A model generated the notes under the pieces. The model was given only the letters and a program-made list of their open reading frames with translations, had not been told where the DNA came from and did no database searches. From a virus, in IMG/VR virus record IMGVR_UViG_3300042387_002109, positions 1 through 47,398 of that record: a stretch of 47,398 bases of DNA. The stretch is one strand, 5' to 3'. Numbering within the stretch: position 1 is the stretch's first letter; every line of letters begins with the position of its first letter. Of this stretch, positions 7,185 through 44,226 are shown in pieces. The translations under genes were made by a program, and so were the position numbers.

Positions 7185-7194
7185 AAATAAAATT

Positions 7195-8232: not shown

Positions 8233-8236
8233 TAAT

Positions 8237-11731: not shown

Positions 11732-11733
11732 AC

Positions 11734-12672
11734 ATGAAAAAAATTTTAATTACAGGTGGAGCTGGATATTTAGGTTCCGTTTTAACAGAAGTATTATTAA
11801 ATAAGGGATATCGTGTAACGGTATTAGATAATCTAATTTATAAACAGATATCTGTTGCTCCTTTTGCTTATCATCCTAATTTTGATTTTATATTAGGTGA
11901 TGTAACCAATGAATCACTTCTAAAATCATTAGTTGAATCACATGATGTAATTATTCCTTTAGCTGCTATTGTAGGTATGCCTGCTTGTAAAGCTCAACCT
12001 GAATTAACAGTTAAAGTTAATTACGAACAAGTAAAAAATATTACTAAATGGGTTACCAAAAACCAAATGGTATTAATTCCAAACACTAATTCTCAGTATG
12101 GTTCATCAACTGAAGTTATTACTGAAGAGTCCCCATTTAAACCACTTTCATTATATGCTGAGACTAAATGCGATGCTGAAAAGGTAGTATTAGACTCAGG
12201 TAATGGGATTGCCTTAAGATTAGCAACTGTGTTTGGGATGTCTTATAGAATGAGAATGGATTTACTTGTGAATGATTTTGTTTATAAAGCATTAGAAAAT
12301 GGTTACCTAGTATTGTTTGAATCTCATTTTGTTCGTAATTATATTCATGTTAGAGATATTGCTAATACATTCCTATTCATGATTGAAAATTATGAAAAAT
12401 GTAATAATAATGCATTTAATGTAGGGTTAACCTCAGCTAATTGTTCCAAATTAGTATTAGCAGAAACAATCAAAAAATATATCCCCGATTTGGTTATTGT
12501 TCAAAATGATTTTAAACAAGATTTTGATCAAAGAAACTATATTGTTTCAAATGCTAAGTTGGAAAATCAAGGATGGTTACCTACATTCACACTAGAAAAT
12601 GGTATCCAAGAATTAATTAAAGGATATCAACTGATTACTAAATTTAAAAATAAAGATTTTACAAACCTATGA
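11734..12672 (+). CDS. NAD-dependent epimerase/dehydratase (extended SDR)
   Basis: A 312-residue protein with 'ILITGGAGYLGSVLTEVL', the GxxGxxG NAD-binding loop of extended SDRs. 'YAETKCDAE' is the catalytic YxxxK, and 'NSQYGSS' supplies the upstream catalytic Ser or Thr region. 'GIALRLATVFG' and 'NYIHVRDIANTF' match the substrate-binding segments of nucleotide-sugar epimerases and dehydratases. It makes or converts a nucleotide sugar for the cluster. Full family length; ATGA overlap with the radical-SAM gene. Confidence 0.9.
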   Translation: MKKILITGGAGYLGSVLTEVLLNKGYRVTVLDNLIYKQISVAPFAYHPNFDFILGDVTNESLLKSLVESHDVIIPLAAIVGMPACKAQPELTVKVNYEQVKNITKWVTKNQMVLIPNTNSQYGSSTEVITEESPFKPLSLYAETKCDAEKVVLDSGNGIALRLATVFGMSYRMRMDLLVNDFVYKALENGYLVLFESHFVRNYIHVRDIANTFLFMIENYEKCNNNAFNVGLTSANCSKLVLAETIKKYIPDLVIVQNDFKQDFDQRNYIVSNAKLENQGWLPTFTLENGIQELIKGYQLITKFKNKDFTNL

Positions 12673-14216: not shown

Positions 14217-14802
14217 AGAACAATTAATCGCCTTTGAAGACGACATAGCAGAATGTTTTAACAACGCTATGATTAAAGCTCCTATCCATTTATATTATGG
14301 AAATGAAGAGCAAATGATTAATATATTTGAGAAAGTACAACCTGAAGATTGGGTATTCTGTACTTGGCGCTCACATTATCAGTGTTTACTTAAAGGTGTA
14401 CCTCAAGAACAAATAAAAACAGATATATTAGAAGGTAAATCTATTACTCTCTGCTATCCTGAATATAACATATATTCTTCAGCTATTGTAACAGGTAATA
14501 TTCCTATTGCAACAGGTGTTGCGTTAGATATTAAACGTAAAGGTCAAACAAATCATGTTTGGTGCTTTGTAGGTGATATGACATCTGAAACTGGTACCTT
14601 TTTTGAGAATTGGAAATATGCTGTAAATTACGATTTGCCTATCACATATGTAATTGAAGATAATAGTAAATCGGTTTGTACTGTTACTAAAGAAGTATGG
14701 AATAACGATTTATACTTTAAAAATGAAACAAGAAAAATAATTTATTACCAATACGAAACCAAGTACCCTCATGCTGGTGCCGGTAAGCGAATTCAATTTT
14801 AA
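14197..14802 (+). CDS. TPP-dependent enzyme, PP-domain subunit (E1-alpha-like)
   Basis: A 201-residue protein resembling the TPP-binding half of E1 and transketolase enzymes. 'GNIPIATGVALDIKRKG' is the conserved helix before the cofactor site. 'FVGDMTSETGTFFENW', then '...VIEDN', is the GD(x)...N Mg/TPP motif, with GDM replacing the usual GDG. 'SHYQCLLKGVPQEQI' resembles the substrate-channel segment. The partner Pyr domain is the next gene, 2 bp away. It overlaps the radical-SAM gene by 20 bp. The pair could build branched or acyl-extended sugars by carbon-carbon bond formation. Confidence 0.8.
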   Translation: MNNLLTKEQLIAFEDDIAECFNNAMIKAPIHLYYGNEEQMINIFEKVQPEDWVFCTWRSHYQCLLKGVPQEQIKTDILEGKSITLCYPEYNIYSSAIVTGNIPIATGVALDIKRKGQTNHVWCFVGDMTSETGTFFENWKYAVNYDLPITYVIEDNSKSVCTVTKEVWNNDLYFKNETRKIIYYQYETKYPHAGAGKRIQF

Positions 14803-14804
14803 TT

Positions 14805-15341
14805 ATGAAATATTTTGACGAATTAAAACGATCAATGGATTGGCTTAATGAAAAGCCAGATACATTCTTTCTAGGACAAGCAGTAACATATGCTGGTACA
14901 GCTATGACTAACACAGTTAAAGATGTTAATCCATCTAAGATGATGGAAATGCCTGTAAATGAAGATATGCAGATGGGAATGACAATTGGAATGGCATTAA
15001 ATGGTACTGTTCCTATTTCAATTTACCCACGCTGGAACTTTCTATTATTGGCTGCTAATCAAGTAGTTAATCACTTAGATAAAATAAAAATAATGTCAGG
15101 TGGTGGATACACACCTAAAGTAATTATTAGAACATCAATTGGAGCACAACGCCCACTTCATCCACAACATCAACATATTGCTGATTTTACTGGGGGATTT
15201 AAGGCAATGTGTGATTGGGTTGATATAATTAGACTAGATGAACCACATCAAATATTTGAAGCATTTCAATATGCTTATGAAAGAACAGACAACCGCCCTA
15301 CTATTCTAGTTGAATGGGGTGATTATTATGGAGAAAAATAA
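14805..15341 (+). CDS. TPP-dependent enzyme, Pyr-domain subunit (E1-beta/transketolase-like)
   Basis: A 178-residue protein. 'EMPVNEDMQMGMTIGMALNG' contains the glutamate that protonates the TPP pyrimidine ring in E1-beta and transketolase enzymes, and 'ISIYPRWNFLLLAANQVV' is the helix at the subunit interface. It lacks the C-terminal third domain of normal E1-beta proteins (about 330 residues). With its 201-residue partner it therefore forms a minimal PP plus Pyr two-subunit enzyme. Substrate unknown; the next gene encodes a ColD-like dehydratase, suggesting joint work on a deoxysugar. Confidence 0.8.
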   Translation: MKYFDELKRSMDWLNEKPDTFFLGQAVTYAGTAMTNTVKDVNPSKMMEMPVNEDMQMGMTIGMALNGTVPISIYPRWNFLLLAANQVVNHLDKIKIMSGGGYTPKVIIRTSIGAQRPLHPQHQHIADFTGGFKAMCDWVDIIRLDEPHQIFEAFQYAYERTDNRPTILVEWGDYYGEK

Positions 15342-15348
15342 AAATAAA

Positions 15349-16530
15349 ATGAATAATTTCTATTTGCCTTTAATGAGCGATAATATTGATAAATCTGATA
15401 TAGAATCAGTTATTGATTTTCTTACCTCACATCCAATTCCAAAATTGACTAATGGTCCTAAAGTAGTTGAATTTGAAAATAAATGGGGAGAATGGTTAGG
15501 TACAAAATATAATATAATGGTTAATTCTGGAGCATCTGCTAATGAATTAACAATGTTGGCTCTAAAATATATCTATGGAGAAGGTGAAATTATAGTACCT
15601 CCACTAACCTGGATTTCAGACATATCCTCAGTATTATTTGCTGGTTTTGACCCTGTGTTTGTAGATATTAATTTAAAAAACTTATCATTTGATATTGATA
15701 AATTAAAAGCTGCAATTACACCTCAAACTAAAGCTATATTTCTTACTCACGTACTTGGTATTAATGGTTTAACAGATGAGTTAGTTAATATATGTGAAGA
15801 AAAAGGAATATTATTAATTGAAGATGTTTGTGAATCACATGGAGTAACTTTTAAAGGACAAAAAGTAGGATCAATTGGATTTGCTTCTAATTTTAGTTTC
15901 TTCTTTGCTCACCATATGTCAACAATTGAAGGTGGAATGGTTTGTACAGATAATGAATATTTCTATCAAGTATGTAGAGCACTTCGTTCTCATGGTATGA
16001 CTAGAGAAATGACAGATGATAATTTTAAACAACAAATCATTAATGAAAATCCTGATCTAAATAAAGACTTTATATTCCTTGCTCCCGCTCATAACTTTAG
16101 AAGTACTGAAATAAATGCTGTTATTGGATTATCTCAAATTGAAAAATTAGACACTAATAATAGTCGTAGAATAGATAACTTTAGTTATTTCATAGAAAAT
16201 TTAGATTCTAATAAGTATATTACTGATTTAGAAATGGAAGGACAATGTAATTATGCTTTCATAGTAATACTAAAAGAACCTTCATTTGAGTTAAGGGATA
16301 AAGTAGAAAAAACACTTAATGAAAAAGGAATTGAATTTAGAAGAGGATTATCTGGAGGAGGAAATCAATTAAGACAACCTTACTTTAAGAAAAATTATAA
16401 TATTAATTATGATGATTTTAAGAATGTAGATCACGTTCATCATTTTGGTTGGTATATTGGCAATTATCCTACATTGGAACAAGAAAAAATAGATACATTA
16501 CTTAATATCCTCAATAATGATATTTCCTGA
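15349..16530 (+). CDS. DegT-family PLP enzyme with His at the lysine position (ColD/RfbH-like 3-dehydratase)
   Basis: A 393-residue fold-type I PLP protein of the DegT/DnrJ/EryC1 family. 'VNSGASANEL' binds the cofactor phosphate, and 'LIEDVCESHG' holds the Asp that contacts the PLP ring nitrogen. In aminotransferases a lysine follows 'SF....', but here the segment is 'FFFAHHMSTIEGG', placing H188 at that site. That is the hallmark of the PMP-dependent dehydratases ColD and E1/RfbH, which remove the 3-hydroxyl of 4-keto-6-deoxy nucleotide sugars. Length fits ColD (about 390). ATG 15349 is chosen, 7 bp after the upstream stop; an in-frame ATG at 15328 would overlap it. Confidence 0.85.
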   Translation: MNNFYLPLMSDNIDKSDIESVIDFLTSHPIPKLTNGPKVVEFENKWGEWLGTKYNIMVNSGASANELTMLALKYIYGEGEIIVPPLTWISDISSVLFAGFDPVFVDINLKNLSFDIDKLKAAITPQTKAIFLTHVLGINGLTDELVNICEEKGILLIEDVCESHGVTFKGQKVGSIGFASNFSFFFAHHMSTIEGGMVCTDNEYFYQVCRALRSHGMTREMTDDNFKQQIINENPDLNKDFIFLAPAHNFRSTEINAVIGLSQIEKLDTNNSRRIDNFSYFIENLDSNKYITDLEMEGQCNYAFIVILKEPSFELRDKVEKTLNEKGIEFRRGLSGGGNQLRQPYFKKNYNINYDDFKNVDHVHHFGWYIGNYPTLEQEKIDTLLNILNNDIS

Positions 16531-17002
16531 AGTAAAAATATTCCAACCAGACTCATTTGAAGATTATAGAGGTGAATTATATACTGTATTCAATCAAGAC
16601 GAACACGAATTAATCTTTAATCATGATAAAGTAGCTGTTTCAAGACAACACGTATTGAGAGGAATTCATGGTGATGCTAAAGCAACTAAATTAATTACCT
16701 GTTTAAGTGGTGAAATATATCTTGTAGTTATAGATAATAGACCTGAGTCTCCAAATTATCTAAAATGGAATAGTATAATTCTAAATGAAAATAATAAAAG
16801 ACAAATATTAATACCTCCTGGATTTGGGAATGGACATTTAGTATTAAGTGAAAAAGCTGTATTCTTCTATAAATGGTCTTATAAAGGAGAATATCCTGAT
16901 GTTAAAGATCAATTTAGTCTAAATTGGAAAGACCCAAAAATTAACATACATTGGCCAATAGATAACCCTATACTTTCAGAACGAGATAAAAATTCACATT
17001 AA
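16517..17002 (+). CDS. RmlC-like dTDP-sugar 3,5-epimerase family cupin
   Basis: A 161-residue protein matching the RmlC group. 'QHVLRGIHGD' contains the catalytic His, 'KLITCLSGEIYLVVIDNRPE' is the core cupin sheet, and 'ILIPPGFGNGHLVLSE' is the conserved loop. 'WKDPKINIHWP' and 'LSERD' form the typical C-terminus. RmlC enzymes epimerise 4-keto nucleotide sugars at C3 and C5. The usual 'GFAHGF' is changed to 'GFGNGH', which may alter specificity. It overlaps the upstream gene by 14 bp and abuts the apt-like gene. Confidence 0.85.
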   Translation: MIFPEVKIFQPDSFEDYRGELYTVFNQDEHELIFNHDKVAVSRQHVLRGIHGDAKATKLITCLSGEIYLVVIDNRPESPNYLKWNSIILNENNKRQILIPPGFGNGHLVLSEKAVFFYKWSYKGEYPDVKDQFSLNWKDPKINIHWPIDNPILSERDKNSH

Positions 17003-17478
17003 TGAATTGGAAAGAATTTATTCATGAAGTACCTAATTTCCCCAAACCGGGAATATCATTTAAAGACATTTCACCCCTACTAAAATCAGTTAAATTCTCT
17101 GAAGCAATCTCAGAAATGAGAAAATTAGTTCCTAATCCACAATATTGGGTAGGAATTGATTCAAGAGGATTTATATTTGCTTCAGCATTAGCTAATACTT
17201 TTGGAGGTTTAGTTATGTGTAGGAAAAAAGGCAAATTACCTCCACCTACAATAAACCAAGAATATTCTTTAGAATACGGAACCGATACTCTAGAAATCCA
17301 ACCAGGTAATGGAACTGTAGTGATTGTAGATGATGTTTATGCTACTGGGGGGACAATGAATGCTGTTGAGCAGCTATGCCAAAAAGCAGGATATACTGTA
17401 ATAGGTAAGTTAGTATTAGTTGATTTACAATTTCTTCATGAACCTAATAATATTAAAAGTCTAATACAATATGAATAG
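17002..17478 (+). CDS. apt: Adenine phosphoribosyltransferase
   Basis: A 158-residue protein with the full Apt pattern. The N-terminal 'PNFPKPGISFKDISPLL' is the characteristic Apt start, 'GIDSRGFIFASALA' follows, and 'RKKGKLPPPTINQEYSLEYG' is the flexible loop. 'VVIVDDVYATGGTMNAV' is the PRPP-binding signature. It converts adenine plus PRPP to AMP. The adjacent gene encodes an MTA/SAH nucleosidase-like protein that would release adenine, and a PRPP synthetase lies at 38173-39024, so a complete salvage route is encoded in this window. Short but intact for the family. Confidence 0.92.
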   Translation: MNWKEFIHEVPNFPKPGISFKDISPLLKSVKFSEAISEMRKLVPNPQYWVGIDSRGFIFASALANTFGGLVMCRKKGKLPPPTINQEYSLEYGTDTLEIQPGNGTVVIVDDVYATGGTMNAVEQLCQKAGYTVIGKLVLVDLQFLHEPNNIKSLIQYE

Positions 17479-18052
17479 GAAAGTTTTCATAATTGCCATT
17501 GCAGATGAAATAGAAACCCAAGGCAATATCCTAGGATACCCAGTAATGTTTAGTGGAGTTGGTAAAATAAATGCTGCTACAACAGCAGTAATGGCTTTTA
17601 ATTTGGGTTATAATGAAGTAATTAATATTGGATCTTGTGGCTCATTAAAATTATCTGTTGGAGAAGTAGTTAAAATAGGACAAGTATTTCAAGATATTGA
17701 TGCCACTCCTTTATCTGAATATGGAGAAACACCATTTGAAGTTGCTAGTAAACAAATAATATTAGATACAAAGTCTTCTATTACTTGCTTCACTACAGAT
17801 TATTTTTATGATAAATCACAACAATCAAAGTATTCAAAATATTATTTGGATATGGTTGAAAGTAATAGTATATTTGATATGGAATGTTTTGCAATTGCTA
17901 AAGTATGTAAACGCTATGGGATTAAATTTAGTTCATATAAATGGATTTCTGATAGTGGTGAGCATAGTGATTGGAAAAAAAATTGTAAAATAGGATTTGA
18001 AAAAGTAAAAGTTATACTTAATGAGCAATTTGAAAAAGAAAGAATTCAGTAA
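17471..18052 (+). CDS. MTA/SAH nucleosidase-like (PNP/UDP phosphorylase family)
   Basis: A 193-residue protein of the nucleoside phosphorylase/nucleosidase family. 'FSGVGKINAATTAVMAFN' is the first signature, 'VINIGSCGSL' matches the N-[TI]-GS[AC]G strand, and 'QDIDATPLSEYGETPF' matches the 'D.D.T.FGY..G..P' segment of MTA/SAH nucleosidases. 'DMECFAIAKVC' carries the ribose-binding Glu, and 'WISDSGE' has the Asp that protonates the purine. It would release adenine from methylthioadenosine, SAH or 5'-deoxyadenosine. It overlaps apt by 8 bp. It is about 35 residues shorter than bacterial Pfs, so activity needs testing. Confidence 0.8.
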   Translation: MNRKVFIIAIADEIETQGNILGYPVMFSGVGKINAATTAVMAFNLGYNEVINIGSCGSLKLSVGEVVKIGQVFQDIDATPLSEYGETPFEVASKQIILDTKSSITCFTTDYFYDKSQQSKYSKYYLDMVESNSIFDMECFAIAKVCKRYGIKFSSYKWISDSGEHSDWKKNCKIGFEKVKVILNEQFEKERIQ

Positions 18053-18806
18053 TTTTAAAGTATTAGTTATTGGAGACACATGTTATGATGAATTTATATA
18101 TGGTACTGCTGTTAGATTAGCCCCTGAAGCTCCGGTACCTGTATTTAATCCTATTAATACAACTCTCAATAAAGGAATGGCAGGGAATGTAGTAGAAAAT
18201 TTACAAGCATTAAATACTCAAACATACTTTATAAAAAACCCAGAACCAACACCAATTAAAACACGTTATGTTGATGAAAGATCAGGACAGTTATTATTAC
18301 GTGTAGATGCAAACGATAAAGTAGAAAGAATAAATGAAAATACTTTAAAATATATCACTAATAACAAATATAAAGGAGTAACAATGGATGCTATTATAAT
18401 TAGTGATTATGATAAGGGATTTTTAGAAGAAGAAGATATTGATTTTATTTGTAAAAATAATTTCAATGTGTTTATAGATACTAAAAAAATATTAGGTGGA
18501 TGGTGTAAAAATGCATCTTTTATTAAAATTAACCATGTTGAATATCAACGCACAGAATATACAATTCAAGAATTAGGTATTAAAGATAAAATGATTATTA
18601 CTTTATCAAGTAAAGGATGTCAACATAAAGATAAAGTATATCCTGTTGAAAAAGTACAAATTAGAGACGTATCAGGAGCCGGAGATACTTTTTTGTCTGG
18701 GCTAGTATCTGAATTTATATTAACTAAAGATATAGAAAAAGCAATTAGATTTGCTCAACAATGTGCCACAATAGTAGTTCAAAAACCAGGAGTATCAACA
18801 ATATGA
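18021..18806 (+). CDS. PfkB-family sugar kinase, HldE N-terminal/HldA-like
   Basis: A 261-residue ribokinase-fold protein. 'VIGDTCYDEFIYGTAVRLAP' followed by 'EAPVPVF' is the hallmark start of RfaE/HldE heptose-7-phosphate kinases. 'KGMAGNVVENLQAL' is the substrate-binding glycine pair and 'DVSGAGDTFLSGL' contains the GAGD catalytic motif. It probably phosphorylates C1 of a sugar phosphate; a cytidylyltransferase of HldE C-terminal type is encoded at 7482-7883. At 261 residues it is shorter than HldA (about 320). It overlaps the nucleosidase gene by 32 bp and the methyltransferase gene by ATGA. Confidence 0.85.
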   Translation: MSNLKKKEFSNFKVLVIGDTCYDEFIYGTAVRLAPEAPVPVFNPINTTLNKGMAGNVVENLQALNTQTYFIKNPEPTPIKTRYVDERSGQLLLRVDANDKVERINENTLKYITNNKYKGVTMDAIIISDYDKGFLEEEDIDFICKNNFNVFIDTKKILGGWCKNASFIKINHVEYQRTEYTIQELGIKDKMIITLSSKGCQHKDKVYPVEKVQIRDVSGAGDTFLSGLVSEFILTKDIEKAIRFAQQCATIVVQKPGVSTI

Positions 18807-20479
18807 GTAATTATTTTGTAAAGCAAGTAGGAAATATAGTATCTGATACAAAAATAGATACTAATATATTTGAATTTAGACATGAAAAATTCAATGAAGT
18901 AATCCCAGAAGGGTCTATTGTATTAGATATTGGAGCACATGCTGGAGGGTTCAGCCTAATGTTTGGTAGTTGTACAGGTGAAAAAGGTAAAATACTAGCA
19001 TTTGAGCCAAATCCAAAAACATTTGAAAGTTTAAAATATAAGGCCGATAATAATCCTCAATTTAATATTATTCCTTATAATTATGCGTGCACGAATAAAA
19101 AAGGTAAATTTATTTTTAATTATTCAGATCCAAGTTTTGGTGTAGGAATGAATGGTGGTTTTTTTGATTCTTTAAAGTTGGGAAATCAAATAAAACAATT
19201 TCATAACCATCAAATTGAAGTAGATGGCGTTAATATATTAGATTTTTTAAATGAAAATCACAGTAATGAACTTGATAAAATAAAATTTATCAAAACAGAT
19301 ACTGAAGGGTTTGATAAGGAAGTATTAAAAACTCTTTCCCCACTTATTAAAAAGAATAGACCTGTATTAATGGTTGAAGCTTTTAGAGATTTAACTAAAG
19401 AAGAAATATTAGATTTTTGGAATGTACTTAAATCATTTAATTATGAAATTTATGATGTTTCACCTTTAGATAATAAGACAGACTGTACAGGTCCTTTAAC
19501 ATTAGAAGAATTTGAATATTACATTTATAAAGTAGTTGATAATGGTAATTTCTTCTGCTTCCATAAAGATGAAGTAGTTAATTATAATTTACCAACTACA
19601 ATACCTGGTAAAACAGCAGTTGTTGTATTCGGTAGAAATGATGGTTATAAAGAAAAAGAACGTTTTGCTATTCATTTAACTACAATGTTAGAAACATTTG
19701 ATGAAGTAATTTATGTAGATTGGAATTCATCAACTCATAGCTTCCTATATGAAGTATTAGATATGATACCTAAAACAGGCAAACTAAAACACTTCGCAAT
19801 TCCCCCAGAATATGCTAAATTAATGTCTAATAATGATGATAAAGCTCAAATATGTAATAGTGTTTTATCATTTAATTTAGGATTAAGAAGAACAAATGCT
19901 GAATGGATTGTATTATCAACTACAGATATAATCCCGCCAACTAAAGAAACATTACAAAAATTTATTTCACAAGCTAATAAACATTCTTTTTATACTTTTA
20001 GTAGGAGAGATATTGAATATAATGATGTGATTGCTAATTTAGATAAATTAGATGAATATAGAAAAGAATTAGATAAAACAACGGAACCTCGTTATCTTCC
20101 AACAGCAGTAACCCCTAATGATAGATATAGTATTTTCAATTGCTGTGGAGACTTTCAACTAGCTACTAAAAACATTTGGTATAAAATGAGAGGATATGAA
20201 GAACCAATGCTATATGCTTGTTTTGTAGATACTAACGCTCAAAAGAAATCAGTATTATATGGTTTTGATTTAGTTCCTATATATGATATTCCGTTATATC
20301 ATATGAGTCATAAAGGAATGGGAAATGATGGTTCATCACCTTCAAAACAATATTACAATGATGCTATGCAGTGGGTAGAATATTTTGATAAACGTGAAGA
20401 ATTAGGTCACATTTTATATTCTTATAATGCTGATACTTGGGGATACTCTAACGTAGATATTGAATTTGAAGTATTTTAA
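18803..20479 (+). CDS. FkbM-family methyltransferase fused to a GT2-like domain
   Basis: A 558-residue two-domain protein. Residues 1 to about 240 form a SAM-dependent FkbM methyltransferase: 'VLDIGAHAGGFSLMFG' is motif I, 'ILAFEPNPKTFESLK' carries the acidic residue that binds SAM ribose, and 'FIKTDTEGFDKEVLKTL' is the FkbM-specific block. Residues from about 270 on start 'GKTAVVVFGRNDGYKEKERF', include 'EWIVLSTTDIIPP' and end with 'PLYHMSHKGMG', resembling a nucleotide-sugar transferase domain. The fusion suggests O-methylation linked to sugar transfer on one glycan. ATG 18803 overlaps the upstream stop. Last gene of the cluster. Confidence 0.75.
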   Translation: MSNYFVKQVGNIVSDTKIDTNIFEFRHEKFNEVIPEGSIVLDIGAHAGGFSLMFGSCTGEKGKILAFEPNPKTFESLKYKADNNPQFNIIPYNYACTNKKGKFIFNYSDPSFGVGMNGGFFDSLKLGNQIKQFHNHQIEVDGVNILDFLNENHSNELDKIKFIKTDTEGFDKEVLKTLSPLIKKNRPVLMVEAFRDLTKEEILDFWNVLKSFNYEIYDVSPLDNKTDCTGPLTLEEFEYYIYKVVDNGNFFCFHKDEVVNYNLPTTIPGKTAVVVFGRNDGYKEKERFAIHLTTMLETFDEVIYVDWNSSTHSFLYEVLDMIPKTGKLKHFAIPPEYAKLMSNNDDKAQICNSVLSFNLGLRRTNAEWIVLSTTDIIPPTKETLQKFISQANKHSFYTFSRRDIEYNDVIANLDKLDEYRKELDKTTEPRYLPTAVTPNDRYSIFNCCGDFQLATKNIWYKMRGYEEPMLYACFVDTNAQKKSVLYGFDLVPIYDIPLYHMSHKGMGNDGSSPSKQYYNDAMQWVEYFDKREELGHILYSYNADTWGYSNVDIEFEVF

Positions 20480-26069: not shown

Positions 26070-26546
26070 ATGAAACTATTTCTAACAACTATATTAATAT
26101 TCCTGTCTAGTTTATTAAAGGCCCAACCAGTATCTGTATACGTTGGTAATGTGACTAACAAAGTTAAAATAGGTTCACTTACTGGTAATAAAAATCTTGC
26201 ATTTGGTGTTAAGAATATAGTTGAAGAAGCAATACTTGATAAAGGATATGATTTAAATAATAATAGTAGTGCTTTTAAATTAGATCTTGAAATAATTTAT
26301 TTCGATATTCAACAAACATCAACTGGTATAAGTGTATTTCATAAAACAGAAAACGAAACAATAATTCGAATAAAAGGTATTCTTTATACAGATGCTAAAA
26401 AACCTAAAGAATACATTGCAATAGGAAAGTCCTCCGAAATCTCAACATCAACAATGATTATCGATGAAGGTGGTGGTTTTAATCAAGCTTCGGCCCGTTC
26501 TGCATTAAAAAAAACCATTATTAATTTAATTGAAAATTTACTATGA
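26070..26546 (+). CDS. Secreted periplasmic/outer-membrane-associated protein
   Basis: A 158-residue protein with an N-terminal signal peptide (MKLFLTTILIFLSSLLKAQ). The mature part looks like a small alpha/beta domain: VSVYVGNVTNK, then 'NLAFGVKNIVEEAILDKGY', then a long strand pair. That layout is reminiscent of the CsgG/YajG-type fold, where a nucleotide-binding-like sheet is followed by 'A....L...G' helices. I cannot assign a function. ATG 26070 is chosen because it starts the signal peptide; the longer frame overlaps tmRNA. It is the first gene of the envelope cassette and overlaps the next by ATGA. Confidence 0.65.
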   Translation: MKLFLTTILIFLSSLLKAQPVSVYVGNVTNKVKIGSLTGNKNLAFGVKNIVEEAILDKGYDLNNNSSAFKLDLEIIYFDIQQTSTGISVFHKTENETIIRIKGILYTDAKKPKEYIAIGKSSEISTSTMIIDEGGGFNQASARSALKKTIINLIENLL

Positions 26547-28444
26547 AAAAAGTATTATTAGTCATAGCACTTTTAATCAGTTATGTAACAACATTTGCTC
26601 AAACACCTCAAATTGGACATTTCCAAACCTTAACTACTGTTAGAAGAGGTGATACATTAGATGTTACCTGGTTTTACCGTCCGGGTGCTGCCGATGTTCG
26701 CACATTTCAGGTTGACTGGCAGTATAAAAAGACATTATTAACCCATATTTCCACTACAGTTGACGCTTCAGTAAATGGAATGACTCCTGCTGTAAGTTAT
26801 AAGACCTGGGATAATTACAAATACGGTAGTTATTCAAATGGTACTTATAATTACACATCTAATTCAGAGTGGACTATAGGCCGTAACTATTTAGTATTAT
26901 CGAGTGGTTCAACTATTGGATCTAGTGGATATATTATTCACAATAAGTATAAGATTAACTCTGTATCACCAAACTATGTTTCAGATACAATTACTGTAAA
27001 CTGGGCTCGTATGTTTGACGTTAACGGTACTACAATTGGTGATAATGTAGCTCAACTTACAAATCAAAAATTAGCAATTAAACTATTAGGTAACTTAACA
27101 TTATCAGGTAAAGTATGGTTAGGTCCAAGTATGACTTTAAGACCAACAGTATGGTGTTATAAAGCAAGTAATAATGCCTTTATTGATTCCGTAACTGTAA
27201 ACGCTGATGGTAGTTATGTTTTAGATAACGTTGATGAAAATACAAAGTATAAACTAGATGTTAGATTCCCAGCTCCACTTACCGCTATTAGAGATAATGC
27301 CGTAACAATAGCAGATGCTGTTAAGACATATGACGAATACACGGTTACAGATGTTAACCAAACATTTAGTAGAACTTATTTAAAAAATGGCTTAGCTTAT
27401 CTAATTGCTGATATCAATAAGACAGGTACATTAGATGGTGGTGATGCTTATAGTATTTATGCTTCAGTATCTGGCCTGAAACCAATTGATACAGCTAAAT
27501 TAATTAATGTATTTACCAAAAGTGTTTATGACTCATTAGCAATAGGTACTAATCAATGGAATGATTGGGCATCTTATATCAATGGAGTAACATATGTTTT
27601 TGATAGTGTAGGTACAGGTAACCTAACAGGAGTAGACATTAAATACTTTATATTAGGTGATGTTGATAGAACCCACTCTTCTCCAGTATATGATGCGGGT
27701 GGTGCTTTAGTAGCTGCTGCTAAGTATATTGGAACACTTGATGTTAATATTCCAAATGTAACTGCTCCAACAGGTCAAGCAATGTATGCTAATTTCAATA
27801 TGAATACCAATGGTATTAAAAATGACGGCTTACAGTTTGAAATGAAATATGATCCTGCTAAGGTTAAATTTGAAGAAATTATTTCAAATATTCAAGGACC
27901 ATGGTTACAATATCTAACACATGATGAAACAAATGGTATTATCCGTTTTGGAGGAATGAATAATCAAATTTTAGGATCATTAACAGGTAATGTTACTCCG
28001 TTTAAACTTAAATTCTCTCCAATCGGAAATAATGATATTCAAACAAATGTTTATGTTAGACGCTTAATGGATGCTAGTGATAGAAATGGAGATCATTTTA
28101 ATATTAATTTAGCATCAGATTATATAGTATTATCTTCAAGAGCTAACCCGGGATATGTATTGCCTTCACCTGAAAAGGAAATTACAGCTATGATTCGTCC
28201 AAACCCAACTAGTGGTTTTTTTGAGTTAGTAGTAATGTTCCCTAGATCAAATATGAACTCATTAGCTAGAGTTTATGATACTCAAGGACGTTTAATTAAA
28301 GAAATAGGTAAAGTATCTAGTACTGAATACTATACAACTGTAGTTAAGCAAGTAGATTTAACAGCTGCTATAAATGGTAACTATTTATTAGTATTAGATA
28401 ATGGAAACCAGAAACGTTTAACAAAACAATTTATTAAAATTTAA
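26543..28444 (+). CDS. Secreted multidomain protein with type IX secretion C-terminal domain
   Basis: A 633-residue protein. A signal peptide (MKKVLLVIALLISYVTTFAQ) is followed by beta-rich domains, a dockerin/EF-hand-like loop at residues 290-301 (DINKTGTLDGGD) and a cohesin-like segment near 390-545. Residues from about 550 to 633 form a typical T9SS type-A sorting domain: 'IRPNPTSGFFELVV', 'VYDTQGRLIKEIGK', 'VDLTAAINGNYLLVL' and a final 'KQFIKI'. Such domains direct export by the Bacteroidota Por machinery and anchorage at the surface. A phage gene with this signal implies use of the host's T9SS. ATGA overlap with the upstream gene. Confidence 0.8.
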   Translation: MKKVLLVIALLISYVTTFAQTPQIGHFQTLTTVRRGDTLDVTWFYRPGAADVRTFQVDWQYKKTLLTHISTTVDASVNGMTPAVSYKTWDNYKYGSYSNGTYNYTSNSEWTIGRNYLVLSSGSTIGSSGYIIHNKYKINSVSPNYVSDTITVNWARMFDVNGTTIGDNVAQLTNQKLAIKLLGNLTLSGKVWLGPSMTLRPTVWCYKASNNAFIDSVTVNADGSYVLDNVDENTKYKLDVRFPAPLTAIRDNAVTIADAVKTYDEYTVTDVNQTFSRTYLKNGLAYLIADINKTGTLDGGDAYSIYASVSGLKPIDTAKLINVFTKSVYDSLAIGTNQWNDWASYINGVTYVFDSVGTGNLTGVDIKYFILGDVDRTHSSPVYDAGGALVAAAKYIGTLDVNIPNVTAPTGQAMYANFNMNTNGIKNDGLQFEMKYDPAKVKFEEIISNIQGPWLQYLTHDETNGIIRFGGMNNQILGSLTGNVTPFKLKFSPIGNNDIQTNVYVRRLMDASDRNGDHFNINLASDYIVLSSRANPGYVLPSPEKEITAMIRPNPTSGFFELVVMFPRSNMNSLARVYDTQGRLIKEIGKVSSTEYYTTVVKQVDLTAAINGNYLLVLDNGNQKRLTKQFIKI

Positions 28445-30398: not shown

Positions 30399-31904
30399 TT
30401 GAGAAAATTAAAAACATATCTAAGTGTGTTACTTATCATTTGTCTCAGTTGGAAAGCTGAGGCACAGACACTTACTTACTCATTTACTGATCCTTGTACT
30501 AAAGCAATAACTTTATTCTCAATTCCTGCTACAGGTACAGTAATATATTTCCAAGGACAATCAAAATCATTTACATCAGCAGATATTCAAAACGGTACAT
30601 TTGCCTCTTGGATAAATCAAGTTTATACTAACTACCGTAAAATAGCTCCTTGTGGACAACAGCAAGGACAAGTAACTCAAAACCAAATCACATCACAGAT
30701 TATAAGCAACACAGTTCAAAGTGTTGTTAGTAGTATTATGAGTCAAGCTCAATCAGCAGCCTCTAGTACTATTACGGGTGTTGCTACATCATCATCAACT
30801 GCTAATGCTTCATTAGCTGGAGGGGACGATGCTGCTAGTAAAAATAATAAGAATAATGATTCAAAACAAAAGAAAAAAGGAAATAATAATACAAATACAA
30901 ATAACCAAAATAATACATCAAGCTCAAGTAACTCTAATAACACTAACGGAAATACTCAAAACAACAGTACGTCAAGCTCAAACAGCTCTAACAATACTGG
31001 TGAAAACACTCAAAACAATAATACATCAAGTTCAAATAGCTCTAATAACAATGGAGGGAACAGCAGTAGTGGGAGTACTAGCAATACTAGTACTGGACAA
31101 ACTACTAATCAAACCAATACTAGAACTGAACAAAAAGGTAAGGAAGTAGTGTCTACAGTTACAATGAATATAGATCAACAAAATCAAAACAGTTCTAAAG
31201 ACGATAATAGCAGTAGTGGAGGAGGTAAAAGTAAAAACGGTAAAAGCGGATCAACTAACCCTCTAATAGTATCATCTGATTTCACAACAGCTCAAAATCT
31301 AGATAAATCATTTACTCCAATCCTTAACTTAAGTATGTCCCAATCATCAATGACAGGAATGTCAAGTTGGGGTTTAACATCAATGATATGGTTTAATTTT
31401 AAGCAGTTTGCCCTATCAGGTAAGTATACAAAGATTAGTTTTAGTAAAGATGGTAAATTAAAATGGATACATAATGTTAATTTAACTGGTGTTTATTCGT
31501 ATGGTAATATAATCGGATTTTTAGGTTATAGTGGAATATTAAATGCTGGAAAGTGGGGTGTAACTGGATTTAATGTAAGTGGAGCTATGACATTAGTAAC
31601 TGGGGAGGAAAAAAATACATTCCTATCACCTTCAATAACAGCATTTTATACTAAACCATTTAAAGGTAATAAACGTTTAACTATATCTCCTGAGTTGTAT
31701 CTTATCTCATCACCACTAATATACTCAACCAAAGAAAAAGTAACAACAACAGACAGAACATTCAGTGCATTTATAGGCAGTGGATTTGACTACCAAATAA
31801 CAAGACGTTTTAAGTTAAATATAAATTATAAGGCAAATTTGTCTACTAACCCAGAATTTCCTATATTATCGTTCTTCCTAATAGGTAGTAAGATTAATTT
31901 ATGA
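30399..31904 (+). CDS. Outer-membrane beta-barrel protein with Asn/Ser/Thr-rich linker
   Basis: A 501-residue protein. A signal peptide (MRKLKTYLSVLLIICLSWKA) is followed by a small domain with one Cys pair. A low-complexity linker rich in Asn, Ser, Thr and Gln covers residues 145-295. The C-terminal 200 residues have regular amphipathic strands (WGLTSMIWFNFKQFALSGKY, WIHNVNLTGVYSYG), as in an outer-membrane barrel. The start is TTG at 30399: the frame has no upstream ATG and the signal peptide begins there. It overlaps the lectin gene by 4 bp. It could display the linker outside the cell or serve as a surface receptor mask. Confidence 0.65.
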   Translation: MRKLKTYLSVLLIICLSWKAEAQTLTYSFTDPCTKAITLFSIPATGTVIYFQGQSKSFTSADIQNGTFASWINQVYTNYRKIAPCGQQQGQVTQNQITSQIISNTVQSVVSSIMSQAQSAASSTITGVATSSSTANASLAGGDDAASKNNKNNDSKQKKKGNNNTNTNNQNNTSSSSNSNNTNGNTQNNSTSSSNSSNNTGENTQNNNTSSSNSSNNNGGNSSSGSTSNTSTGQTTNQTNTRTEQKGKEVVSTVTMNIDQQNQNSSKDDNSSSGGGKSKNGKSGSTNPLIVSSDFTTAQNLDKSFTPILNLSMSQSSMTGMSSWGLTSMIWFNFKQFALSGKYTKISFSKDGKLKWIHNVNLTGVYSYGNIIGFLGYSGILNAGKWGVTGFNVSGAMTLVTGEEKNTFLSPSITAFYTKPFKGNKRLTISPELYLISSPLIYSTKEKVTTTDRTFSAFIGSGFDYQITRRFKLNINYKANLSTNPEFPILSFFLIGSKINL

Positions 31905-33331
31905 GGCTATTACTAATCATATTATTATTCCCCTTTATGCTGTTTGGACAGTCAATTACTGCTCCACCTGGTAGAACTTATCAAGTAAGTGTTAGTGGAC
32001 AAGATGCAAGTGGATTTGTGATTAGTGGGTTTGGATCAGAAACATTATTAACATCAATTAGTTTAGTTAATCCACCATCAGGTACAACATTTAACATAAC
32101 CACAACAACAGGCCTAACTGCAGCAAGTGGATTTACTTTAACTGGAAATAAAACTCGTTTAGTATTTACAGGAACCATTGCTAATGTTAATAATGCATTA
32201 GCATCTTTAAAAGTTAATACGGGCTCTGTACTAGGAAATATTCAAATATCTGTAGCTACAACTGTTAACCCAGCAGGATTTTTCTATAATGGTGTAAATG
32301 GACACTTTTATAGACCAATATCTGCTGGTAACACATACACTGGTGCTAGAGCAGCAGCCTTAACAACAACATTCAAAGGTCAGCAAGGATACTTAGTAAC
32401 AATCACTTCAGCAGATGAAGATGCGTTTATTTTTAATAATGTTCCACAATCTCAAATATGGTTTGCATTAACTGATGAAGTATCTGAAGGTCAATGGAGG
32501 ATTGATGCAGGGCCTGAAAAGGGAACTTTAATCAAAACATCAAACGGACAATTTGCAGGAAATATATCTGGACAATACAATAACTGGGCGCCTGGTGAAC
32601 CTAATAACAGCGGAAACGAAGATTATGCAGTAACGAAGTGGAATGGTTCTCAATGGAATGATTTACCAAATAACTTTAGTTGCCCTTATGTAATTGAATA
32701 TGGAACCTGGACTAATCCAGCTGATGCTACATTTACTGATTTCTATACAGCTAATACTATTAATACAGTAGCAATTACAAATATATTAACAGGTACAGTT
32801 ACAATCCCTGGAGGATTAAGTTCAAGACCATTACTTACACTCTATAGAGTAGTAAATGGAGTTGATCAACTTGTAGACTATAAAACAGTAGCTGTGAACG
32901 GTACTTATACCTTTACTTTACCGAATCAAAATTCAACCTACAAATTAGTACCATCATTAACAACACAAGGTATAACATCAGCTGATTTTGATTTAGTATG
33001 GGGTGAGATACAAAATGAAAGTACACCACCTATTACTGCTCAAGGTTTAGTAATGACTGGAACTAAGCAGTGGAAAGCAGCTGATATAAATGAAAATGGA
33101 ATATTGGATCTAGGCGATACCTATCTAATAGCAGCTCATAACTCAGGGTACAGACCAATAACTAAAGTATTATGGTTCAATCCAACTAATTATGATAATA
33201 TCACTAGATTAAATTTCAATACTATTAACCCAGTAACATCGTTTACTTTAAACGTAGTAACATCAGATATAACTCAAAATATTAAATACTGTATATTAGG
33301 GGATATTAATTTATCTCATTCAAGCCAGTAA
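31901..33331 (+). CDS. Secreted C-type lectin-domain protein, lacking the sorting domain of its paralogue
   Basis: A 476-residue protein with a signal peptide (MRLLLIILLFPFMLFGQ) and a cadherin-like N-terminal region. A C-type lectin domain spans about residues 130-268: 'GYLVTITSADEDAFIF', 'NNWAPGEPNN' with the EPN sugar-binding motif at 233-235, and WND at 252-254. A dockerin-like loop 'DINENGILDLGD' follows. The end, 'YCILGDINLSHSSQ', matches 'YFILGDVDRTHSS' in the T9SS cargo at 26543-28444, where 250 more residues follow. This protein therefore stops exactly where its paralogue continues toward the sorting domain. Confidence 0.75.
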   Translation: MRLLLIILLFPFMLFGQSITAPPGRTYQVSVSGQDASGFVISGFGSETLLTSISLVNPPSGTTFNITTTTGLTAASGFTLTGNKTRLVFTGTIANVNNALASLKVNTGSVLGNIQISVATTVNPAGFFYNGVNGHFYRPISAGNTYTGARAAALTTTFKGQQGYLVTITSADEDAFIFNNVPQSQIWFALTDEVSEGQWRIDAGPEKGTLIKTSNGQFAGNISGQYNNWAPGEPNNSGNEDYAVTKWNGSQWNDLPNNFSCPYVIEYGTWTNPADATFTDFYTANTINTVAITNILTGTVTIPGGLSSRPLLTLYRVVNGVDQLVDYKTVAVNGTYTFTLPNQNSTYKLVPSLTTQGITSADFDLVWGEIQNESTPPITAQGLVMTGTKQWKAADINENGILDLGDTYLIAAHNSGYRPITKVLWFNPTNYDNITRLNFNTINPVTSFTLNVVTSDITQNIKYCILGDINLSHSSQ

Positions 33332-35734: not shown

Positions 35735-36009
35735 TGGAAAATAATCGTAGATCATTTTTTAAAGGACTAGCAACATTCGCTAGTGGAGTAGTAGCAGCTA
35801 AAGCGGCTTCTTATATTCCAAAGAAAGAAGAACCAAAAGAACAATTATTGGTATCTAGTGCTATTACTCTTAATCATGAAGGTAAAGAATATCACCCATT
35901 GGTAGTAGAAAAAACAACATATGATGGTATGGAATTTGTACCAACCAACATTAGTCATAGTTTCGCTATTCAAGGACATAAACCAAAAATTAGGGAAGCA
36001 AACGTATGA
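35734..36009 (+). CDS. Tat-leader small protein
   Basis: A 91-residue protein. 'NRRSFFKGLATFASGVVAAK' is again a twin-arginine type leader (RRxFFK, then a weakly hydrophobic region). The remaining 70 residues are soluble and predicted beta-rich, with no recognised domain. The start coincides with the previous stop and the end overlaps the thymidylate synthase gene by 4 bp. Two tandem Tat leaders in a phage are unusual. Confidence 0.6.
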   Translation: MENNRRSFFKGLATFASGVVAAKAASYIPKKEEPKEQLLVSSAITLNHEGKEYHPLVVEKTTYDGMEFVPTNISHSFAIQGHKPKIREANV

Positions 36010-37055
36010 ACAACATTGATCGTCAATATAAAGAACTATCATATCATATTCTGAATTTTGGAGTAGATAAAGCAGACCGTACAGGCACAGGTACTAAATC
36101 AATCTTTGGTTGGCAAATTAGACACAATATGAAGGACGGATTTCCATTGCTAACTACAAAAAAGATGGCATGGAAATCGATTGTAACAGAATTGTTATGG
36201 TTTTTAAGAGGAGATACTAACATCAAATTCTTAGTTGATAATGGTTGTCATATTTGGGATGGGGATGCTTATAAGAATTATCTAAATCATACACAACATG
36301 AAGCATCTTATATAAAAGAACAATTTATCAATTTAATTAAAACGGATAAAGATTGGGCAAATGTGTGGGGTGATTTAGGACCAATCTACGGCGCGCAATG
36401 GAGGAAATGGGGAGGATTACAGGATTTAACTGATGATGATAAACCAATTTATTTAGACCAAATCGCAAATCTAATTAACGAACTTAAAACAAATCCAGAT
36501 TCAAGACGATTAATGGTTAGTGCTTGGAATGTAGGTGAGTTAGATCAAATGGTACTTCCACCATGTCATTATGGATTTCAAGTTTATACTAGAAAATTGA
36601 GTTTAACTGAACGACGTAATTTAGTTACTCCTGAAATGCACCAACAAATTTATACTGGAGGTGACTCAAGTACACTATCACATTCAGAAATAGATCAATG
36701 GGGTGTTCCTAAACGAGCAATCTCATTAATGTGGAATCAACGTTCAGTAGATACATTTCTTGGTTTGCCATTTAACATAGCATCCTATGGTTTATTATTA
36801 GAAATTATTGCTAAGGAAGTAAATATGGTACCTGAAGATTTGATTGGCAATTTAGGTGATGTACATTTATATAATAATCATATTGAACAAGCTGAAGAGC
36901 AACTTAGTAGAACACCTTATGAATTACCTAAACTAAAAATAGAAGATGAAGTAGTATGGAAAGAATATGACTGTCTACCTTCATATAAAGTAGGTGATTT
37001 TACTTTAGAAAATTACCAATCACACCCAGCAATCAAAGCACCACTATCAAATTAA
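36006..37055 (+). CDS. thyA: Thymidylate synthase
   Basis: A 349-residue ThyA. 'DRTGTGTKSIFGWQIRH' binds substrate phosphate, 'LLWFLRGDTN' and 'GPIYGAQWRKW' are core motifs, and 'VLPPCHYGFQVY' has catalytic C187. 'LPFNIASYGLLL' and 'GDVHLYNNH' complete the dUMP and folate sites. It methylates dUMP to dTMP with methylene-tetrahydrofolate, supplying thymidine for phage DNA. It is longer than E. coli ThyA (264) because of an insertion around residues 194-235, between FQVY and LMWNQRSVD. ATGA overlap with the upstream gene. Confidence 0.96.
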   Translation: MNNIDRQYKELSYHILNFGVDKADRTGTGTKSIFGWQIRHNMKDGFPLLTTKKMAWKSIVTELLWFLRGDTNIKFLVDNGCHIWDGDAYKNYLNHTQHEASYIKEQFINLIKTDKDWANVWGDLGPIYGAQWRKWGGLQDLTDDDKPIYLDQIANLINELKTNPDSRRLMVSAWNVGELDQMVLPPCHYGFQVYTRKLSLTERRNLVTPEMHQQIYTGGDSSTLSHSEIDQWGVPKRAISLMWNQRSVDTFLGLPFNIASYGLLLEIIAKEVNMVPEDLIGNLGDVHLYNNHIEQAEEQLSRTPYELPKLKIEDEVVWKEYDCLPSYKVGDFTLENYQSHPAIKAPLSN

Positions 37056-38172: not shown

Positions 38173-39024
38173 ATGGTAAACCTCAACCTTGCTTATCCCA
38201 ACGTCTCAGATATCACATTTAAAACAGTTCAATTTCCTGATGGTCAACAAGATATAGTACTTCAAACCTGGCCTACACCCTCTCAACCTGTCACTGTTAG
38301 GTCAAGAATGAATTCATTTAAAGACATTGAGTTGATTATATGTGCTAATAAAGCGCTTCGTAATTTAGGTTACACTGAAATTCATTTGAGTGTTCCTTAC
38401 TTTTTGGGAGCTAGAAGTGATAGGAAATTTACAATGGGTGGTAATAATTATCTTAAAGATGTTGTATGTCCTGTTATTAATCTTCAAAAGTTTGCTACAG
38501 TAACTACAATGGACCCTCACAGTGATGTAGTTGAGGCTTGTACTGATAATTTTAGAAAAATTAATAATGTTGAATTAGTAAAATGGGCTCTAACAGATAT
38601 AGACAACACATTTACAGCTCACGATAAAGTAGTAATTGTATCTCCCGACTCAGGAGCTGTTAAAAAAGGATACCATGTAGCTAAACGAGTTGGTTATACA
38701 AGAGAAATTATAACAGCAGCTAAAGTTAGAAACGTAACCACAGGACAGATTTTATACACTAGTGTCCCTATGGAACATGAATACGCTCAGGACTCTAAAT
38801 TCGTTATGATTGATGACATTTGTGATACAGGTAGAACGTTTACTGAAGTGGTTAAAGTAATAAAACAAAAATATCCTGATGCTAAACAATATCTAATTGT
38901 AACTCATGGAGTATTTAGTACAGGATTTGAGGAATTGGCCAAATATTTTGATTACATTTATACTACAAATTCAATAGCAGATGTTACTGGATTTGATTTT
39001 GTTAAACAAATGAATGTATATTAA
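38173..39024 (+). CDS. prs: Ribose-phosphate pyrophosphokinase (PRPP synthetase)
   Basis: A 283-residue protein of the Prs family. 'VPYFLGARSDRKF' matches the conserved 'P....ARQDR' ATP-site segment. 'TTMDPHSDVV' is the 'D.H..Q' region. 'KFVMIDDICDTGRTFTEV' is the PRPP-binding signature. It makes PRPP from ribose-5-phosphate and ATP. Phage Prs genes often accompany NAD salvage; no NAMPT is seen in this window. The PRPP user here is the Apt encoded at 17002-17478. It is about 30 residues shorter than bacterial Prs. Confidence 0.9.
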   Translation: MVNLNLAYPNVSDITFKTVQFPDGQQDIVLQTWPTPSQPVTVRSRMNSFKDIELIICANKALRNLGYTEIHLSVPYFLGARSDRKFTMGGNNYLKDVVCPVINLQKFATVTTMDPHSDVVEACTDNFRKINNVELVKWALTDIDNTFTAHDKVVIVSPDSGAVKKGYHVAKRVGYTREIITAAKVRNVTTGQILYTSVPMEHEYAQDSKFVMIDDICDTGRTFTEVVKVIKQKYPDAKQYLIVTHGVFSTGFEELAKYFDYIYTTNSIADVTGFDFVKQMNVY

Positions 39025-39228: not shown

Positions 39229-39426
39229 ATGAATAAATACGAAGCATTAGGAGACAATTATTTCGGATTTGAATTATTTGAAGAAGTATTTAAAGTAATT
39301 AATGAACGTGGCTACTCACATGATGATAACATGTTTAAAGCAGGTGTAGCAAGCGCTGAAGCTGCTGTAAGGCGTTTAAGAGAAGAATATTATGAAGCCA
39401 TATCTAAATCAGTAATGGATATGTAG
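39229..39426 (+). CDS. Hypothetical small protein
   Basis: A 65-residue helical protein with a conserved-looking 'GVASAEAAVRRLREEYYEAI' C-terminus. No motif recognised. It ends 14 bp before the nuclease gene. Confidence 0.5.
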   Translation: MNKYEALGDNYFGFELFEEVFKVINERGYSHDDNMFKAGVASAEAAVRRLREEYYEAISKSVMDM

Positions 39427-39440
39427 TGATATTTATAGGT

Positions 39441-40073
39441 ATGAAATACCTATTATCACTCCTTCTATTAATTAGTTTTACTGTTTCAGCTCAAGATACA
39501 GTTACTATTACTCACAAAGCGTACAAAACAACTTATAGCAAATCCAAACATTACCCTGTCAAGGTTGAATGGTGGATAAGTAGAGCATCTATTACGTGTG
39601 ATGTTAAAGCAAAACGTGGAGATAAATTTATACCTGATCCTAAATTAGCTGCTGAAACTAATTTACAATCAGACTATACAGGTCAAGGATTTGATCGTGG
39701 GCATAACTTCCCAGCAGCAGACGCATCATGTGATCAAGTAATAAATGATGAGTCATTTTACTTCAGTAATATGACAGCTCAATACCCAGCACTCAATCGT
39801 GGTGATTGGAAAACATTAGAGGAAATGACACGCACCGAGGCTAAATTATATGACTCAGTTTATGTTTGGTGTGGTTCAGTAGGCGAAGTTAAGAAAATAG
39901 GTAAAGTATCAGTACCAAAGCAATGTTGGAAAGTATTATATACTAAACGTTTAAACACATATAGCGCATTTCTATTCGACAACAATACTACTAAAGCAGA
40001 TGGAGTTAAAAATAATGAAGTACCTTTAGAATTAGTCGAACAAATTTCTGGATTTAAATTTAAAGTTAAGTAA
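39441..40073 (+). CDS. Secreted DNA/RNA non-specific endonuclease (NUC1 family)
   Basis: A 210-residue protein with a signal peptide (MKYLLSLLLLISFTVSAQ, cleavage after about residue 17). 'GFDRGHNFPAAD' contains the DRGH active site (H88 as general base), and 'YFSNMTAQYPALNRGDWKTL' has the Asn ligands for Mg2+. The family (NucA, Serratia nuclease, EndoG) degrades DNA and RNA. Export to the periplasm means it cannot digest cytoplasmic host DNA directly; it may break down incoming rival DNA or released nucleic acid. ATG 39441 starts the signal peptide. Confidence 0.92.
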   Translation: MKYLLSLLLLISFTVSAQDTVTITHKAYKTTYSKSKHYPVKVEWWISRASITCDVKAKRGDKFIPDPKLAAETNLQSDYTGQGFDRGHNFPAADASCDQVINDESFYFSNMTAQYPALNRGDWKTLEEMTRTEAKLYDSVYVWCGSVGEVKKIGKVSVPKQCWKVLYTKRLNTYSAFLFDNNTTKADGVKNNEVPLELVEQISGFKFKVK

Positions 40074-41737: not shown

Positions 41738-41747
41738 TATATACTAG

Positions 41748-41769
41748 GTGGGGGTGTCAAAGCCCCCAC
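41748..41769 (+). terminator. GC hairpin after DUF932 gene
   Basis: GTGGGGG-TGTCAAAG-CCCCCAC, 11 bp after the stop. TACATTTA at 41771-41778 follows at once, 16 nt before the next ATG, so this is another joined hairpin and -10-like box. Confidence 0.75.
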
Positions 41770-41794
41770 TTACATTTATTTAAATAATAAGGTT

Positions 41795-42850: not shown

Positions 42851-42875
42851 GGTGGGCAGCTTAAAGCTGCCTACC
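42851..42875 (+). terminator. GC hairpin with overlapping -10-like box
   Basis: GGTGGGCAGC-TTAAA-GCTGCCTACC, ten pairs with one G-U, 3 bp after a stop. Its last bases run into TACCTTCA at 42872-42879, a promoter-like box 15 nt before the next ATG. Near copy at 44202-44226. Confidence 0.7.
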
Positions 42876-42894: not shown

Positions 42895-43428
42895 ATGAAA
42901 ACATTAATAATTCATCCACACGACGAATCAACACATTTCCTAAAACCAATATACGAGAGTATACCTAATAAAACAGTTATTACTGGTGGTTGGGGTATTG
43001 TTGAAGTAAGGACTCTAATTTCAATGCATGATCGAATAATAATGATGGGTCATGGTTCACCCAAAGGTCTATTTGGAATTAATTTCAATCGTAGTTATGT
43101 TATAGATGAGGATACAGTAGACTCACTTCAATATAAAAAATGTATATTCATTTGGTGTCATGCTGATCAATTTGTAAAACAAAATGGTTTGAAGGGATTA
43201 TATAGTGGTATGTTTGTAAGTGAAGTAACTGAGGCATTAATATACAAATTAAAAGGCGATAAGCAATTAGTAACCGAATCAAATAACACATTTGCATTTA
43301 TGCTTGGTTCAGTTATTAACCAACCACTTCCCGAAATATATAAGCAAATCAAAAAGGATTATGGTTGGTTAGCGGAGAGAAATGAAATAGCTAAATATAA
43401 TCATGAAAGATTAGCTTTGGCAGAGTAA
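42895..43428 (+). CDS. Candidate caspase-fold (clan CD) cysteine peptidase-like protein
   Basis: A 177-residue alpha/beta protein. 'RIIMMGHGSPKGLFG' ends a hydrophobic strand with H53, and 'KCIFIWCHADQFV' ends the next with C88. This is the order and rough spacing (35 residues) of the His-Cys dyad in caspases and CHAT-type peptidases. A segment near 100-112 (GLYSGMFVSEVTEAL) would form the following helix. The N-terminal 'KTLIIHPHD' is strand 1. If active it would be a phage-coded protease. Alternative: a non-catalytic Rossmann-like protein. It follows a hairpin and box and ends in a promoter. Confidence 0.45.
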   Translation: MKTLIIHPHDESTHFLKPIYESIPNKTVITGGWGIVEVRTLISMHDRIIMMGHGSPKGLFGINFNRSYVIDEDTVDSLQYKKCIFIWCHADQFVKQNGLKGLYSGMFVSEVTEALIYKLKGDKQLVTESNNTFAFMLGSVINQPLPEIYKQIKKDYGWLAERNEIAKYNHERLALAE

Positions 43429-44201: not shown

Positions 44202-44226
44202 GGTGGGCGGCTTAAAGCCGCCTACC
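44202..44226 (+). terminator. GC hairpin with overlapping -10-like box
   Basis: GGTGGGCGGC-TTAAA-GCCGCCTACC, a near copy of 42851-42875 with two compensating base changes that keep pairing (CAGC/GCTG becomes CGGC/GCCG). TACCTTCA at 44223-44230 overlaps its end, 15 nt before the next ATG. Confidence 0.75.

Follow-up and report, generated by a model that had tools for sequence, protein, structure and literature searches.

A very small protein with a predicted caspase-type fold and a putative histidine-cysteine dyad in large Bacteroidota phages, Lak megaphages and bacteria

Bacterial antiviral systems are already known to include effectors that are peptidases of the caspase fold; in particular, passages of two reports on Craspase (PMC10028731, PMC9729208) describe the clan CD peptidase Csx29 in an antiviral role. 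A search of the open-access literature found no report of a caspase-fold peptidase family in tailed phages, and the accessible passages of PMC9503650, PMC10799925, PMC8195603 and PMC12409349 yielded no description of such a phage family. Here we analyze a protein encoded in a stretch of viral DNA of 47,398 nucleotides (IMG/VR record IMGVR_UViG_3300042387_002109; hereinafter, the window) whose source virus infects Bacteroidota bacteria. The models discussed below place this newly recognized, very small, single-domain protein in clan CD. Taken as a whole, the findings appear to be best explained by a minimal, stand-alone clan CD peptidase with a non-structural function in host takeover or counter-defence, an explanation that we consider reasonably probable. 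The features of the gene and of its product are collected in Table 1.

Table 1. Features of the gene for the predicted caspase-fold protein and of its immediate upstream region (positions in the window)
Feature	Position	Strand	Remarks
GC-rich 11-bp hairpin	42851..42875	+	Directly before the gene; paired changes in L009-L012
ORF of the predicted caspase-fold protein	42895..43428	+	177 aa, ATG start; single domain, without pro-domain or fused domain
H7-P-H-D10, end of strand 1	42913..42924	+	H7 and D10 in every relative covering them
G52-H53-G54 (GHG)	43048..43056	+	After strand 47-51; H53 codon 43051-43053
W87-C88-H-A-D (WCHAD, residues 87-91)	43153..43167	+	After strand 82-86; C88 codon 43156-43158
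S104-G-M-F-V-S109-E110-V-T-E113 block	43204..43233	+	M106, S109 and E113 in 177/177
N169, near the C-terminus	43399..43401	+	Invariant, 177/177

Pairwise dN/dS values between the window gene and six relatives fall between 0.14 and 0.34, which indicates purifying selection and hence a gene that is maintained by selection. H53, the proposed catalytic histidine, and C88, the proposed catalytic cysteine and nucleophile, are each present in 176 of the 177 aligned relatives. The sole exception, a fast-evolving protein on a long branch of the tree (L126), has lost both residues, with the histidine replaced by asparagine and the cysteine by phenylalanine; such joint loss would be the behaviour expected of a catalytic pair, although this is a single, anecdotal case. 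The patterns used in the search for relatives contained either GHG or GM[FI][IV]SExxEA, so that circularity had to be considered. Among the 97 rows that lacked the GHG patterns and carried GM[FI][IV]SExxEA, 96 keep both H53 and C88, and thus the conservation of the two residues was not made by the search. In two members of the family (L086 and L147; 268 and 298 aa, respectively), the GHG and WC motifs are separated by an insertion of about 90 residues, possibly a regulatory loop.

Searches against Pfam, PHROGs, NCBIfam, PADLOC and PDB sequences did not place the window protein in any family with significance, and profiles of its relatives had no significant match in the PDB. When 58 members were compared with Pfam, Peptidase_C50 (separase) appeared in two, at E-values of up to 1 and with a best E-value of 0.046, below the curated cut-off, and membership in this family by sequence was rejected. 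The same holds for Peptidase_C14 (PF00656) and CHAT (PF12770), neither of which was matched in Pfam. For these two families, comparison profiles were built and aligned with the 177-row family by hhalign, with the scores judged against 44 decoys; the resulting probabilities (0.3% for CHAT and 0.8% for Peptidase_C14) are not significant, and both scores fall inside the range of the decoys. The Peptidase_C14 alignment matches the two GHG motifs with each other and C88 with the catalytic cysteine motif, but since decoys score as high, this coincidence of motifs is only suggestive. In PADLOC-DB, which contains no model matching the window protein, single members of the family yielded weak matches to LmuA (E 0.0044) and to PDC-M22B (E 0.0081). 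The protein is, then, outside every curated family tested and belongs to a large family without a name.

Structure prediction is more informative. The first-pass annotation had read the protein as a possible caspase-fold peptidase, with two hydrophobic strands ending in GHG and WCHAD, and had proposed a search with an AlphaFold model. The model, built from the window protein and 55 aligned sequences (pLDDT 97.8, pTM 0.92), contains strands at residues 3-6, 26-29, 47-51, 82-86 and 101-104, set among helices. Both motifs do end predicted strands: H53 lies after the third core strand and C88 after the next, the fourth, which is the order expected of the caspase fold (catalytic histidine after strand 3, cysteine after strand 4) and which is found in caspases and separase. 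In a Foldseek search of the PDB, this model first retrieved flavodoxin-like and Rossmann folds, with low TM-scores of 0.3-0.4 and only one E-value below 0.001; the top flavodoxin-like match was 3ha2 (E 5e-4, TM 0.38). In BFVD, the match was a single viral protein without a name (A0A1P8DJ94; E 2.3e-4, TM 0.54). Since raw Foldseek favours the flavodoxin-like and Rossmann folds, clan CD takes the lead for the window model only after realignment. Realignment covered the top 1000 PDB chains from Foldseek, and the best 50 of these 1000 are clan CD folds. The best match is a SAVED-CHAT peptidase (Z 12.1, 153 of 177 residues, 3.0 A), followed by procaspase-7, separase and legumain-type proteins at about 9.8, gingipain RgpB at 9.2 and Csx29 at 8.8, with Raptor also present. 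In linear terms, model residues 1-177 correspond to separase residues 1946-2114 with closely similar spacing, the separase nucleophile C2029 being residue 84 of that stretch, compared with C88 here.

A second AlphaFold model (pLDDT 95.5), headed by a chromosomal relative from Prevotella and restricted to sequences from bacterial genomes, leads to the same place. Five SAVED-CHAT chains stand at the top when Foldseek is run directly on this model, and the 50 best realigned entries listed are again clan CD folds, including SAVED-CHAT (Z 10.1, 159 residues), separase (9.3), GPI transamidase (8.7), metacaspase (8.5) and MALT1 (8.2). The clan CD realignments of both models span about 135-160 residues. 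With two models derived from different member sets that both realign best to clan CD, the caspase-fold idea is supported, and a predicted caspase-type (clan CD) fold over most of the domain, with a conserved histidine followed by a conserved cysteine, can be considered well supported. From the conservation and the predicted fold, we infer that H53 and C88 form the clan CD dyad; peptidase activity is likely.

The family is widespread among viruses. Searches of IMG/VR found first 103 and later 287 stretches that encode relatives, the phage records concerned reaching 380 kb in length, and among named phages, relatives are present in Lak megaphage groups A, B and C (all those sampled) and on one unverified faecal contig. 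In GTDB genomes, 124 stretches encode relatives, mainly in Bacteroidota; a scan of GTDB contigs with a narrow alignment gave no match, and relatives were found with a wider one. In an even sample of one class of Bacteroidota, 7 of 295 genomes encode a relative, so the gene is sporadic in bacteria; some relatives lie on bacterial contigs without evident phage context, and the plasmid collections yielded none. The window itself, a 47-kb virus record, is by itself weak evidence of phage origin because no terminase was found in it. However, a terminase large-subunit domain scores above the cut-off in 12 of 26 records (the window and 25 related ones), among them G306, whose locus L015 encodes a relative with 67% identity to the window protein. 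The earlier description of the protein as phage-coded therefore holds for the family, with relatives on records that carry terminase and prohead-protease genes and in Lak phages; bacterial genomes contain members of the family as well. In the phylogenetic tree, phage and host members are largely separate, and the clade of the window protein is purely phage. The tree requires 13 changes of label between phage and host, a count that may be inflated by errors of IMG/VR classification and MAG binning, and at least three of these are forced by well-supported branches, which implies that the genes crossed between phage and host several times. In one case, the family gene of a record named as a bacteriophage (MT837816.1, L007) groups tightly with the copy in a Prevotella MAG (L162), so that this record may be bacterial DNA.

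Other contents of the window are noted briefly. Positions 3012-20479 encode two glycosyltransferases, oxidoreductases, an NDP-sugar epimerase/dehydratase, a DegT aminotransferase, a PfkB kinase and a methyltransferase, perhaps a cluster for surface glycans or glycosylation that the phage carries. Two further products, one that has a T9SS C-terminal sorting domain (Por_Secre_tail; 26543-28444) and one that has a C-type lectin domain (31901-33331), hint that a Bacteroidota phage encodes proteins of the surface or of adhesion. A thymidylate synthase, a ribose-phosphate pyrophosphokinase and an NS-type endonuclease (36006-37055, 38173-39024 and 39426-40073) are typical of large phages. The hairpin that precedes the gene is probably a terminator or the 3' end of the upstream gene, and is outside the mechanism of the caspase-fold protein. 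It shares the form GGTGGGC(A/G)GCTTAAAGC(T/C)GCCTACC with a hairpin at 44202-44226, each lying a few bases past one gene and ahead of the next, and a third hairpin is located at 41745-41772. Upstream of the gene in the relatives L009-L012, both sides of the stem change together (GGTGGGCACAATTATTGTGCCTACC), and it seems that the RNA structure is kept.

No immediate neighbour of the gene is shared across the family, and the commonest neighbours are small phage ORFs restricted to one phage group, which argues against an antitoxin, inhibitor or substrate gene dedicated to it. In Lak-B5, the gene is preceded by phosphoribosyltransferase-like and FolD-like genes, as read from sequence. In Bacteroidales, the chromosomal copies lie in islands with genes for NUDIX-NrtR, DUF1810, gp30.3-like, ADP-ribosylglycohydrolase, VWA, PP2C (sequence only), AAA and phosphatase proteins; the islands of L166, L140, L145, L158 and L133 also contain NADAR-like, LMW phosphatase and DSP phosphatase genes. 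In G007, two CHAT proteins are encoded within 25 kb on the same contig as the family gene.

Could the protein be a virion-maturation protease that processes head or tail precursors during assembly, in line with the suggestion of the initial annotation that it might be a processing enzyme? Maturation proteases are common in phages. However, all 12 related phage records tested contain a match to the T4-type prohead protease S77, above the cut-off in 10, and each of the twelve has exactly one gene of the caspase-fold family. In all ten cases above the cut-off, this gene is more than 50 kb from the S77 match on the record (the two lie, for example, at 125.7 and 3.4 kb in G306 and at 95.0 and 37.4 kb in G307), which makes it a non-structural accessory gene in those phages; both an S77 identity and a place in the head gene cluster are rejected. 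With relatives also occurring on bacterial contigs that lack evident phage context, a role in virion maturation appears very improbable. Another departure from the caspase interpretation would be a Rossmann or flavodoxin-like protein that binds nucleotides or flavins, with GHG and WC as structural or binding residues. Such a protein would be in keeping with the first Foldseek matches of the window model (3ha2 among them, E 5e-4, TM 0.38) and with the nucleotide-metabolism genes next to the gene in Lak phages. Against this stand the 50 realigned entries listed for each model, which are clan CD folds, the preference of Foldseek for SAVED-CHAT when given the second model, and the invariant cysteine and histidine at successive strand ends, lost jointly, which fit a dyad; we consider such a binder highly unlikely.

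Two further explanations retain the fold and change the activity or the purpose. The protein might be a transamidase, peptide ligase or deamidase, in which the Cys-His pair modifies a host or phage protein rather than cutting it. Clan CD does include GPI transamidase (Z 8.7) and asparaginyl peptide ligases (Z 9.6), as well as the inactive Raptor, and the fold and the dyad alone cannot separate transamidases and ligases from peptidases; the top fold matches, however, are peptidases (SAVED-CHAT and separase), and among known clan CD enzymes, those whose dyad is intact mostly cleave peptides. A non-endopeptidase seems unlikely, if conceivable. Alternatively, the phages might have captured a host effector and kept it against rival phages, as a peptidase of defence or superinfection exclusion akin to the bacterial CHAT and caspase effectors. 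Compatible with such a capture are the phage-host label changes in the tree, at least three of them forced, the island setting of the bacterial copies, with ADP-ribosylglycohydrolase, NUDIX-NrtR, VWA, PP2C and phosphatase genes, and the antiviral role of clan CD peptidases in bacteria, as described in passages on Craspase Csx29 (PMC10028731, PMC9729208). Yet the CHAT effectors known so far are joined to sensors, by fusion or by some other tie, whereas this family has no sensor domain, linked signalling enzyme or conserved partner, and the window protein matches no PADLOC model; we give a captured effector a low probability.

We return, then, to a stand-alone clan CD peptidase, whose most plausible role is in host takeover or counter-defence. 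In such an enzyme, H53, which ends one core strand, would activate C88, which ends the following strand, for attack on the peptide bond. The substrate pocket would be shaped by H7, D10 and T13, after strand 1, and by the SGM(F/I)xSExxE block. The H7-D10-T13 stretch is located where caspases and legumain have their substrate-pocket residues; H7-P-H-D10 is a candidate S1 pocket, and the S104-E113 block probably lines the active-site cleft. The acidic D10 might, speculatively, suggest a basic P1 residue. The protein has no pro-domain, no long loop like the caspase inter-subunit linker and no sensor domain and, with no fixed partner either, is probably active once made. Its activity would be set by expression and its specificity by the choice of substrate: the phage would make the enzyme during infection, and the enzyme would act in trans, cutting one or a few host proteins, possibly those of defence systems. 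Several exchanges would have taken place between phage genes and the related genes in Bacteroidota chromosomal islands. The full scenario, in which widespread, undescribed mini caspase-type peptidases serve large Bacteroidota phages and Lak phages in cutting host proteins and have been exchanged with bacteria, is offered tentatively, as possible rather than probable. If it is true, large Bacteroidota phages and Lak megaphages may themselves use caspase-type proteolysis, which would then serve phages too in the arms race. Furthermore, the family hints at what one gene of abundant uncultured phages may do and offers a very small natural enzyme of the predicted caspase fold with an easily tested predicted active site.

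How does this protein compare with the known systems? The T4-type prohead protease S77 (PF03420) is a protease family of the same phages, yet a different family and a different gene. Caspases and metacaspases (PF00656) have the same predicted fold (Z about 8-10), but the phage protein is shorter and lacks a two-subunit processing site and a pro-domain. Gingipain RgpB (4ief) and legumain (4n6o) likewise share the predicted fold (Z 9.2-9.6); they are secreted, multidomain or zymogenic, and the phage protein has no match to their sequence families. Separase (Peptidase_C50; 9hms, 5mz6), with Z-scores of 9.8 and 9.3, is a giant eukaryotic protein under securin control without significant sequence similarity to the phage family, and yet the domain length and the spacing are almost equal. 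Known CHAT proteins (PF12770) carry fused SAVED or TPR sensors and act under the guidance of signals or RNA, whereas the phage protein is a lone domain of 177 aa, from a family without significant sequence-profile similarity to CHAT. Nevertheless, it is the CHAT peptidases, namely SAVED-CHAT of type III CRISPR (8tl0) and Craspase Csx29 (8eex), that provide the best structural match to the two models (Z 12.1 and 10.1 for SAVED-CHAT), being prokaryotic proteins that also have the histidine after one strand and the cysteine after the next.
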